DNA of 64,000 nt from Candidatus Chloroploca sp. Khr17 (GTDB lineage: Bacteria > Chloroflexota > Chloroflexia > Chloroflexales > Chloroflexaceae). The DNA lies in contig NZ_RYFF01000027.1 of NCBI RefSeq assembly GCF_004138165.1, positions 1 to 64,000 on the forward strand, written 5' to 3'. Position 1 is the stretch's first letter, and every line of letters starts with the position of its first letter. The translations under genes and the position numbers were made by a program. Below, piece by piece: positions 19,073 to 59,735 of the stretch. The notes under the pieces were generated by a model. It saw nothing but the letters and a program-made list of their open reading frames with translations. It had not been told where the DNA came from and did no database searches.

Positions 19073-19107
19073 CAAGGTCGCCAGCCACGAACGGGGTAGA
19101 CCGCACG

Positions 19108-19216
19108 TTTTAACGCAGAGCCGCAGAGACGGGGAGACACGGAGTTTTCATATTCCCCTCTGCGCCTCTGCGCCTTTGCGCCTCTGCGTTAAAACAACCA
19201 GTCTTTTTTGCAGCCA
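19108..19216. repeat. GCGTTAA/GCGTCAA-type palindromic repeat, copy 1
   Basis: About 109 bp with TTTTAACGCAGAG on the left and CTCTGCGTTAAAA on the right, enclosing GCGCC-rich tandem units. One of at least nine related elements in the window. The gap from 19073 to 19294 holds nothing else recognisable. Confidence 0.7.
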
Positions 19217-19294
19217 AACGCCGCGCCGCTCACGCGCAGCACTGCTTCCTGCTCCAGAACCGCAATGGTTGCGTTGATCAGCGAGCGATCACAG

Positions 19295-20177: not shown

Positions 20178-20340
20178 GAAACGTACCGTGGGAGAGCGGT
20201 TGCTCGCGGCTAGTATACCCATGTTGACGCAAAGACGCAACGCTGCATATACAGATCCGTATTGACGCAAAGGCGCAAAGGCGCAAAGATATAAAACTCC
20301 TCTGCGCCTCCGCGTCTCTGCGTTAAACAACCGGCCTTCT
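20178..20340. repeat. Direct-repeat unit A with GCGTCAA palindrome, copy 2
   Basis: Begins AACGTACCGTGGGAGAGCGG and contains GACGCAAAGACGCAACGCTG followed by a GGCGCAAAGGCGCAAAG / CTCTGCG-type palindrome. Almost the same sequence recurs at 20791-20957, so the two are a duplicated block of about 160 bp flanking the hsdM remnant. Confidence 0.75.
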
Positions 20341-20344
20341 TTCG

Positions 20345-20465
20345 CGATGCTTAACGCAGAGCCGCTGAGCCGGGGAGACGCGGAGGTTCTATATTCCCCT
20401 CTGCGCCTTTGCGCTTTACCGCTTCACCGCTTTACCGCTTTACCGCTTTACCGCTTCAACGCTTC
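20345..20465. repeat. Palindromic repeat copy 3 fused to an 8-bp tandem repeat
   Basis: The left part (20350-20415) is another GCAGAG...CTCTGCGCC palindrome. From about 20412 to 20460 the unit CGCTTTAC and its variant CGCTTCAC repeat six to seven times. The tandem array starts in the stop codon of the hsdM remnant. Confidence 0.75.
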
Positions 20466-20690
20466 CACCACTCGTGCCAACTCTGCATCGGCCCGCTCGC
20501 GCGCAACACGGACCCCTGCGATGTCGGCGAGAATGGCGTCGAGCGGGCGGTGCTGGGCGCGGTCGGTCACAGTGACAAACTGGGAAAGGCTGAGGTTGTA
20601 GTCGGCAGCGCGAGCTTGCTCCAGCGTGATAGTCAACTGCTGACCATGCGAGGACACCTGATCGAGCCCACTGGCCGGAGGGAGACCATT
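20448..20690 (-). pseudogene. C-terminal remnant of type I restriction-modification methylase HsdM
   Basis: The frame ending at 20448 contains EQARAADYNLSLSQFVTV, then HRPLDAILADIAGVRVARERADAELARVVEAL. This is the usual end of HsdM subunits: an xADYNLSxxRYV motif followed by a coiled coil. Only about 75 residues remain; the catalytic NPPF-type part is gone. The open frame continues upstream through repeat sequence and is not meaningful there. The remnant marks a lost restriction-modification system. Confidence 0.7.
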
Positions 20691-40354: not shown

Positions 40355-40370
40355 GTAAAGGCTCGGAGAA

Positions 40371-40452
40371 TTTGACGCAAAGGCGCAAAGGCGCTAAGGT
40401 TTGATCTAGCTCCATCCATAGCTTTGCGCCTTTGCGTCTTTGCGTCAACACG
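40371..40452. repeat. GCGTCAA-type palindromic repeat, copy 5
   Basis: TTTGACGCAAAGGCGCAAAG on the left and GCGCCTTTGCGTCTTTGCG on the right form an imperfect inverted repeat of about 80 bp between the VOC and patatin genes. Confidence 0.75.
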
Positions 40453-43610: not shown

Positions 43611-43640
43611 TGCTTTGCCCTGCAAATAAGGCGGGATATT

Positions 43641-43722
43641 TGACGCAAAGGCGCAGAGGCGCGAAGGTTTGATGGATCTGCATGCGCCGCTTTGCGCCGT
43701 TGCGTCAACCCGAGTCAACCTT
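43641..43722. repeat. GCGTCAA-type palindromic repeat, copy 6
   Basis: TTTGACGCAAAGGCGCAGAG faces GCGCCGTTGCGTCAACC; about 82 bp, downstream of satP and before the convergent uvsE. It closely resembles copy 5, including GAGTCAACC/GGGTCAACC at the right edge. Confidence 0.75.
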
Positions 43723-43762
43723 ATTTGTAGGGAATTGCTTCCACCCCTACCCGCCCGCTGCC

Positions 43763-46624: not shown

Positions 46625-47977
46625 ATGCTTGACTGGCTCATCATTGGCGGCGGCCTCCACGGTACTCATCTGGCGCTTGTCCTGACGGCGCGGGCCGGGG
46701 TTCCCGCCGAGCGACTGCGCATCCTCGATCCCCACGCGCATCTGCTGGCCCACTGGGATCGTTGCACCTCGGCCACTGGCATGACCTATCTGCGCTCGAC
46801 GCTGGTGCATCATCTCGCCCTTGACCCGCACGATCTCTGGCATTTTGCCCGACGGCGTGGGCTCCAGGCCACCCAGTTTCGCGGCCCCTATCGCCGCCCC
46901 GCCCTCGGGCTGTTTCGCGACCATTGCCAGGCGCTGATCGAACAGTACGGGCTCGCTCAGCTGCACCTGCGCGGACGTGCTACCGGGCTCAGGCGCATCC
47001 CACATGGCTGGTTGGTCGAGACCAACCAGGGCAGCCTCGCTGCGCGGCACGTGCTGCTCGCGCTAAGCACCGGCGAGCAACCACGCTGGCCGGACTGGGC
47101 GCAAGCGTTGCGAGCCGCTGGCGCAAGTGTGCGCCATCTCTATGAACCCGATGCATGCGATCCTAGCCCCAATACTTTTCAAGTAAGCTCACGCGAAGGC
47201 GCGAAGGCGCGAAGGGTTCGCTCACGTACGCTAAAAACTTTGCGCCTTTGCGCCTTTGCGTCAAAACAATCGCCTTCTTTGCAAGGTATTGATCCTAGCC
47301 CCGTCTCATGTGAAGATGCCGCCTCGTGCGAATTGCTCTGGGCCAACGACAACCCAGGCGATCACACGGTTGTCCTTGGCGGAGGGATAAGCGCCGCCCA
47401 GGTCGCCGTGGCGCTCGCCCAGACAACCCCGGGACGGGTGACGCTGCTCATGCGCCATGCGCTGCGGGTCGAGGCCTTTGATAGTCCACCGGGCTGGGTC
47501 GGGCCAAAGGAATTGCGTGGCTTCCACGATGAGCCCGACGTCTGCCACCGCCGGGCGCTCATCACTGGCGCACGACGGCCCGGGAGCATGCCCGACGATG
47601 TTGCCCGTGCCCTGCGCCGCGCCGAACGCCGCGGCTGCCTGCGCATTGTGCAGGGCGAAGTAGCGCAGGCCAGCATTGAGCCAGATGGCACCACGAGCCT
47701 GGAACTCCCGAACCAGACGCTGCACACGCACCATGTGCTACTGGCAACCGGCTTTGCCCCCCATCGCCCTGGCGGGGCGTGGCTCGACGAGGCGATTGCC
47801 ACCTACGAACTGCCCATCGCCCCTTGTGGCTACCCGATCGTCTCACCATCGCTCATCTGGGCACCCGGCCTCTACGTCACCGGGGCGCTCGCCGAACTCG
47901 AACTCGGGCCAGTCGCTCGCAATATCGCCGGGGCACGCCATGCCGGGGCACGTTTTCTTGGCAAGACAAGGATTTAG
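46625..47977 (+). CDS. FAD/NAD(P)-binding oxidoreductase (SidA-like) carrying an in-frame repeat insertion
   Basis: A 450-residue protein. N-terminal dinucleotide fold IIGGGLHGTHLALVL, then CTSATGMTYLRSTLVHHLALDP. A second nucleotide motif VVLGGGISAAQVAVAL (about residues 249-264) and ATGFAPHRPGGAWLDEA near the end resemble lysine/ornithine N-monooxygenase-type enzymes. Residues about 183-222 come from a 120-bp palindromic repeat inserted in frame, with DPSP on both sides. Without it the protein would be about 406 residues. It is the third gene of the Zur-like operon, 9 bp after L28; the substrate is unknown. The insert falls between the two nucleotide folds and may be tolerated. Confidence 0.85.
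   Translation: MLDWLIIGGGLHGTHLALVLTARAGVPAERLRILDPHAHLLAHWDRCTSATGMTYLRSTLVHHLALDPHDLWHFARRRGLQATQFRGPYRRPALGLFRDHCQALIEQYGLAQLHLRGRATGLRRIPHGWLVETNQGSLAARHVLLALSTGEQPRWPDWAQALRAAGASVRHLYEPDACDPSPNTFQVSSREGAKARRVRSRTLKTLRLCAFASKQSPSLQGIDPSPVSCEDAASCELLWANDNPGDHTVVLGGGISAAQVAVALAQTTPGRVTLLMRHALRVEAFDSPPGWVGPKELRGFHDEPDVCHRRALITGARRPGSMPDDVARALRRAERRGCLRIVQGEVAQASIEPDGTTSLELPNQTLHTHHVLLATGFAPHRPGGAWLDEAIATYELPIAPCGYPIVSPSLIWAPGLYVTGALAELELGPVARNIAGARHAGARFLGKTRI
47171..47290 (+). mobile_element. 120-bp palindromic element inserted in frame, 12-bp target duplication
   Basis: The element is bounded by perfect GATCCTAGCCCC copies at 47159-47170 and 47291-47302. Its ends are imperfect inverted repeats: AATACTTTTCAAGTAAG on the left, and AATACCTTGCAAAGAAG read inward from the right. 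Inside are GGCGCGAAGGCGCGAAGG and TTTGCGCCTTTGCGCC. Element plus one duplication is 132 bp, exactly 44 codons with no stop in the gene's frame. A cousin with the same ends lies at 59426. It encodes nothing itself, so it would need a transposase in trans. Confidence 0.85.
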
Positions 47978-58299: not shown

Positions 58300-58375
58300 C
58301 CTACGCTCAAAACTTTGCGCCTTTGCGTCAAAACAATCGCCCTTTGCGCCTTTGCGTCAACCCAACCGCCCTATT
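58300..58375. repeat. GCGTCAA-type repeat, copy 7 (right half duplicated)
   Basis: CTTTGCGCCTTTGCGTCAA occurs twice in tandem without the left arm, followed by AACCGCC. It lies between two convergent genes. Confidence 0.7.
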
Positions 58376-59207: not shown

Positions 59208-59425
59208 AGCGCTCTACTTTCACAGATCCACCAGATAACCAGCTATGGTAAACACTGTAGCGCAGTGCCGTCATTCATGCAAACGGGTGGAGGTGCGTGA
59301 TGCTCTTTGAAGCTATAAACTGACACTCCAGAGCAACCCGTCGACGTTTCAGACAGCCTCTGAGACCGTTCGCTTCGGTCAGGGTTGACCATGCGCCATG
59401 CGCAACGGTACATGGTATTAGGGGC

Positions 59426-59527
59426 AATGCTTTTCAAATAAGCTCACGCGAAGGCGCAAAGAGTGAGCGCACCGACGCGAAAGCCTTTGCGCCTTTGCGT
59501 CAAAACAACAGTATCTTTGCAAGGTAT
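59426..59527. mobile_element. Second copy of the palindromic element with AATRC ends
   Basis: About 102 bp starting AATGCTTTTCAAATAAGCTC and ending TTTGCAAGGTAT, the same termini as the 120-bp element inside the FAD gene. The internal GGCGCAAAG/CTTTGCGCC palindrome is shorter. Flanks GGTATTAGGGGCA and GGTATCAGAGGGCA look like a decayed target duplication. The rest of the intergenic space 59208-59735 holds no gene. Confidence 0.7.
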
Positions 59528-59735
59528 CGGTATCAGAGGGCAAAGCATTCGCCCCTACCATGTTCACGCAACGGGGCCATGCCGTGCTCAAAAACCTGTG
59601 CAAGAGGTAAACACACTGTAAGACCTCGCTTAACGTCCTGTTAGGTAGAATTTAAGGCGCTCCTGTACGATAGGGACAGTCCACCCGATCCAAGACCGTT
59701 CATCTGCAGCGGGCCAACCACCCGCACGTCAAGGT

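Follow-up and report, generated by a model that had tools for sequence, protein, structure and literature searches.

The window analysed here is a 64,000-nt stretch of contig C93 of the Candidatus Chloroploca sp. Khr17 genome (G000; a 6.38-Mb draft of 171 contigs). It contains a gene for a predicted FAD/NAD(P)-binding oxidoreductase which is interrupted, without loss of reading frame, by a short palindromic element. The host had been described as phototroph-like from the DNA alone, in agreement with its identity, as Chloroploca species are green, filamentous anoxygenic phototrophs of the Chloroflexota. The relevant features are as follows.

46625 to 47977, plus strand: host gene, 450-aa FAD/NAD(P)-binding oxidoreductase (NAD_binding_9, weak Pyr_redox), based on the ORF, domain matches and orthologues.
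47160 to 47169, no strand: left target-site duplication (TSD) ATCCTAGCCC, with CTAG as the central YTAR, based on the empty site of Candidatus Chloroploca asiatica and family comparison.
47170 to 47291, plus strand: 122-bp MITE, CAATACTTTTCAAGTAAG ... CTTCTTTGCAAGGTATTG, delimited by family comparison.
47170 to 47187, plus strand: left terminal inverted repeat CAATACTTTTCAAGTAAG, IS4-type, based on an end-pattern search and the IS4 ends (-AATR--------WTW-) tabulated in PMC2266710.
47191 to 47261, plus strand: internal palindrome of 8-bp tandem units (GCGCGAAG / CTTTGCGC) with a strong predicted RNA hairpin, based on repeats and RNA folding.
47274 to 47291, minus strand: right terminal inverted repeat, reading CAATACCTTGCAAAGAAG on this strand, based on the end-pattern search.
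47292 to 47301, no strand: right TSD ATCCTAGCCC, based on the asiatica empty site and family comparison.
59425 to 59529, plus strand: second, more degraded member of the same family, with a TSD matching at 8 of 10 positions (GTATTAGGGG/GTATCAGAGG), located outside coding frame according to a coding model.

Exact copies of GATCCTAGCCCC occur at positions 47159-47170 and 47291-47302, both within the 450-aa ORF, which continues through the insert without a stop codon. The segment between the duplications is strongly palindromic, with a predicted RNA fold of -60 kcal/mol versus a mean of -36 for shuffled sequences (z=-6.7); its 18-bp inverted ends are imperfect, the outermost CAATAC/GTATTG being perfect, and enclose a strong internal inverted repeat. 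The orthologue from asiatica strain B7-9 (G002, of which contig C35 is NZ_LYXE01000036.1), 90% identical at the protein level, carries a single uninterrupted GATCCTAGCCCG and lacks exactly the inserted segment, as do the remaining aligned orthologues. Since asiatica retains this uninterrupted site, a clean insertion of 132 bp on the lineage of the window, after its split from asiatica, represents the simplest reading. The orthologue comparison proposed alongside the original prediction thus bore out its central claims, namely that a palindromic sequence had been inserted in frame into a coding gene by genuine transposition with target duplication, the latter being further supported by a second empty site and a family of copies.

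The dimensions of the insertion required adjustment. The original prediction had combined a 120-bp element with a 12-bp duplication, whereas family comparison places the element at 47170-47291 (122 bp, with ends CAATAC/GTATTG) and limits the true duplication to 10 bp. Although the 12-bp sequence is indeed exactly present at both places, a 12-bp duplication was rejected, as left-right identity among family members drops towards background beyond 10 bp; the two extra positions, the outer G and C, arise because each copy of the duplication is bordered by one base of the element and one of the flank, which agree by chance. The net gain remains as originally calculated (122+10=132 bp, or 44 codons, in frame and stop-free).

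The element belongs to a multicopy family. It has 55 BLAST matches in its own genome, where its end pattern was found 235 times, compared with 14 times for a reversed control. Terminal repeats were paired in a non-random 1.95-Mb sample, some contigs of which had been picked for holding element matches, yielding 44 elements, most of them 101, 105-107, 113-115 or 122-123 bp long. Duplication lengths from 2 to 15 bp were tried in turn, with crossed left and right flanks from different copies for comparison, and 10 bp alone stood out, with a mean identity of 0.745 versus 0.435 for crossed pairs; at least 7 of the 10 bases matched in 33 of the 44 elements versus 8% of crossed pairs. The consensus target from these 44 elements is NNNYTARNNN, with YTAR at the centre of the 10-bp duplication. 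A 4-bp YTAR duplication, as in IS701, was rejected, since three bases on each side are duplicated too. The nearest copies to the window element differ from it by 1-3 nt and are located in two other Chloroploca genomes; interspecies horizontal transfer was rejected as an explanation of these near-identical copies, two of which represent one shared insertion. Searches against Rfam returned matches below the gathering score only.

These regularities bear on two other readings of the insert, one as an artefact of sequencing or assembly and the other as an ancestral segment of the genus since lost from asiatica. Repeats are easily misassembled in a draft of 171 contigs; nevertheless, the duplication obeys the family rule exactly and dozens of copies share the same architecture, while an ancestral segment, being absent from all other orthologues, would require repeated clean loss. 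Either reading is considered extremely unlikely.

The 8-bp units of the internal palindrome also occur elsewhere. Octamer repeats, (GCGCAAAG)n, are present in the window at 19080-19260, 20200-20470, 40360-40450, 43640-43730 and 58300-58360, where several form palindromic pairs and clear IS4-type ends are lacking. The octamer motif yielded 463 matches in the genome versus 235 for the ends, i.e. about twice as many, and it therefore also persists or spreads apart from the IS4-type MITE; no match to the octamer sequences was found in the literature searched. As a separate observation, four loci in other Chloroflexota (L205, L206, L207 and L208, from G035, G027, G028 and G051, respectively) carry like ends around quite different inverted cores (of the CCCTCTCCC/GGGAGAGGG type), as if the ends capture differing palindromes.

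To place the element, its ends were compared with those of autonomous insertion sequences (IS). The end pattern is present in 30 of 400 sampled Chloroflexota genomes, two of which hold a complete IS between such ends. The first (L196; 1482 bp) has ends CAATACCATTCAAATAAG, a perfect 10-bp TSD (TCTTTACGAC, 10/10) and a 483-aa transposase with Nterm_IS4 and DDE_Tnp_1 domains and a match to the NCBIfam model transpos_IS4_1 at 2e-58. The second (L197; 1510 bp) encodes a 501-aa transposase which is 43% identical to the L196 protein in the matched part and matches the same three models. Of the YREK motif, as read by eye, Y, R and E are present in both proteins, while K is present in L197 and replaced by A in L196. 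The IS4 subgroup, as tabulated by De Palmenaer et al. 2008 (PMC2266710), has ends of the form -AATR--------WTW----, a size of 1400-1650 bp and duplications of 10-13 bp. With regard to these tabulated properties, L196 and L197 fit in their ends, size, 10-bp duplication and transposase domains; the K-to-A replacement in L196 departs from the subgroup, and a YTAR-centred target is not among the properties tabulated. The window copy itself encodes no transposase. It has AATA at both ends and GTA and AGA at positions 14-16, hence no WTW, for which other copies have ATA.

In its own genome, the end-pattern part of the search originally proposed was productive (the 235 matches above), but the transposase part was not: searches with PF13006 and the L196 protein detected no IS4 transposase bounded by such ends in the G000 draft, an assembly type from which insertion sequences are frequently lost at contig ends. 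Eleven DDE_Tnp_1 loci were rejected as autonomous copies in the absence of a matching end pair, as was an end pair at C169:113823-116150, whose ORF list, inspected by eye, holds no recognisable transposase. The sister Chloroploca genome G001 contains a degraded transposase remnant with a stop, ending in CTTATTTGAATTATTG.

The window element thus combines the properties of a MITE: it is short (122 bp), transposase-free and multicopy (235 end matches), it has 18-bp imperfect terminal inverted repeats, a TSD and an empty orthologous site (here and at the second, PAS-gene locus described below), and autonomous elements with matching ends (L196 and L197) occur in other Chloroflexota genomes, though not in its own. 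Because these other Chloroflexota harbour full IS4-family elements whose ends are nearly identical and whose duplications are likewise 10 bp long, we infer from the shared ends and target rule that it is an IS4-type MITE mobilised in trans.

The original prediction had likened the element to the Rickettsia palindromic elements (RPEs), and this likeness holds for the outcome, a palindrome of similar size (about 150 bp for RPEs; PMC10969869) lying in frame in a protein-coding gene. Nearly half of the RPEs of R. conorii are located in genes (PMC10969869). When a dicodon coding model trained on the Chloroploca genome was applied to the 44 elements and to random YTAR-centred sites, just one element, the window copy, fell in coding frame, versus 34% of the random sites (P about 3e-7), so that in-gene insertions are removed or avoided. 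If each of the 44 elements is taken in every orientation and phase, 17% of the cases would have a length divisible by three and no stop; an open frame therefore requires no special design, and the window insertion can be a chance survivor. Most copies of the family have stops in most frames.

A second in-frame locus was identified in the sister genomes. G001 carries at C136:13808-13929 (L286:2501-2622) an element differing from the window copy by three bases, and G002 carries at the same site (C188:4272-4393; L290:2501-2622) a copy identical to that of G001. Both are in frame, with the same orientation and phase as in the window, within the linker preceding the first PAS domain of a PAS/GAF sensor-type gene that exceeds 1000 codons and whose orthologue in G000 has an empty site (...QQASSSSPQPSE...). 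Between G001 and G002, this gene has a dS of 0.067 and a dN/dS of 0.22, with zero differences in the 132-bp insert; as the near flanks also differ little (about 2%), the unchanged insert is suggestive at most. Compared with G001, this G000 orthologue (C92, about 225.6-225.9 kb; L158) is also missing some 270 bp from its PAS region, and as far as the junction was read the sequence stays in frame. Separately, a copy within locus L283 of G001 (C118:24359-26479) supplies a C-terminal tail of about 25 new residues to an ArsR-type HTH regulator gene. Among fifteen stretches with frames through the element-derived peptide, as assessed with the coding model, no further convincing internal in-frame fusion was found. 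L289 was rejected as a gene-disrupting insertion, as its site falls between two genes.

A protein-coding palindrome system of the RPE kind, in which elements are selected for an open frame and prefer proteins, would accommodate the second, near-identical 122-bp element in the PAS linker and its invariance despite a flanking dS of 0.067. It is nonetheless regarded as highly improbable, given the depletion of elements in genes relative to YTAR sites, the proportion of random insertions that are in frame and open without selection, the stops in most copies, and the lack of further internal fusions among the long frames read. In-frame location in protein genes, frequent for RPEs, amounts here to one of 44 sampled elements plus one locus in two sister genomes; the ends are IS4-type, the duplications are 10 bp and the host belongs to another phylum, indicating that the resemblance to RPEs does not extend to family.

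The host gene was examined for signs of tolerance. The NAD_binding_9 domain lies in the first part of the protein and weak pyridine-nucleotide-reductase matches in the second; Foldseek placed the fold among two-dinucleotide-domain flavoproteins, e.g. N-hydroxylating monooxygenases, with little information beyond domain class. The insert is situated within residues 175-244, a segment that is gapped or nearly absent in other orthologues, and coincides with the lowest pLDDT (about 25) of an AlphaFold2 model that is poor overall (mean 56), tentatively suggesting a variable, predicted-disordered, flexible linker. The dN/dS of the host gene against asiatica is 0.20, although most of this divergence may predate the insertion; post-insertion constraint was tested weakly by relative-rate counts with 13 outgroups, which revealed no consistent excess of unique residues or amino-acid changes on the window branch compared with the asiatica branch. 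The gene still looks constrained on this evidence. A young pseudogene, in which the insert inactivated the enzyme and the frame is open by accident alone, would be compatible with a possibly dispensable role in the genus, as no copy of the host gene was detected in sister genome G001, and with the very stable hairpin that the mRNA would bear. Against this, the rest of the gene contains no stop or frameshift and the insert lies outside the conserved blocks, and the branch comparison lends no support; a pseudogene is therefore deemed unlikely.

Taken together, the locus is very probably explained by an IS4-family MITE that was moved in trans by a DDE transposase, generated a 10-bp duplication, remained open by virtue of length and phase, and is tolerated in a linker. 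By analogy with the IS4 family, the transposase would recognise the CAATACYTTKCAARKAAG ends of the non-autonomous element and join them to staggered cuts made 10 bp apart around the palindromic YTAR centre, repair of which would produce the duplication. The gene would have been extended rather than truncated because element plus duplication is a multiple of three and this copy has no stop in its orientation and phase, and the insert would be tolerated because it occupies a poorly conserved linker of an accessory enzyme, between its two nucleotide-binding halves. Judged from sequence, the 44 residues are presumably translated and tolerated without a function of their own.

In-frame, protein-extending MITEs are already known in bacteria. 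Coxiella QMITE1 and QMITE2 and the enterobacterial ERIC elements (PMC5896051, PMC10969869) likewise alter or extend ORFs, including by C-terminal tails as at L283, but have other ends and duplications; moreover, where QMITEs have entered functional annotated genes, they lie at the 3' ends (PMC5896051, PMC10969869), whereas both in-frame cases described here are internal. The BrickBuilt MITE of Porphyromonas gingivalis (PMC4596501) similarly contains a tandem repeat within short inverted ends, although its unit is 23 bp long rather than an 8-bp unit forming a palindrome. No earlier description of a Chloroflexota IS4-type MITE group with a YTAR-centred 10-bp target was found in a literature search of incomplete coverage.

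The value of the present case is that an empty site, a target duplication and a likely transposase family are all available for it. Within one genus, two separate loci carry internal in-frame insertions that can both be polarised, which makes it testable whether such segments are tolerated or used. There is a slim chance that the 122-bp subtype repeatedly adds the same basic, predicted-disordered segment of ~44 residues to linkers between domains in unrelated Chloroploca proteins and that selection keeps it; if true, palindromes that invade proteins would have originated a second time, outside the Rickettsiales. The family as a whole defines a Chloroflexota group of probable IS4-type MITEs with a YTAR-centred 10-bp target.
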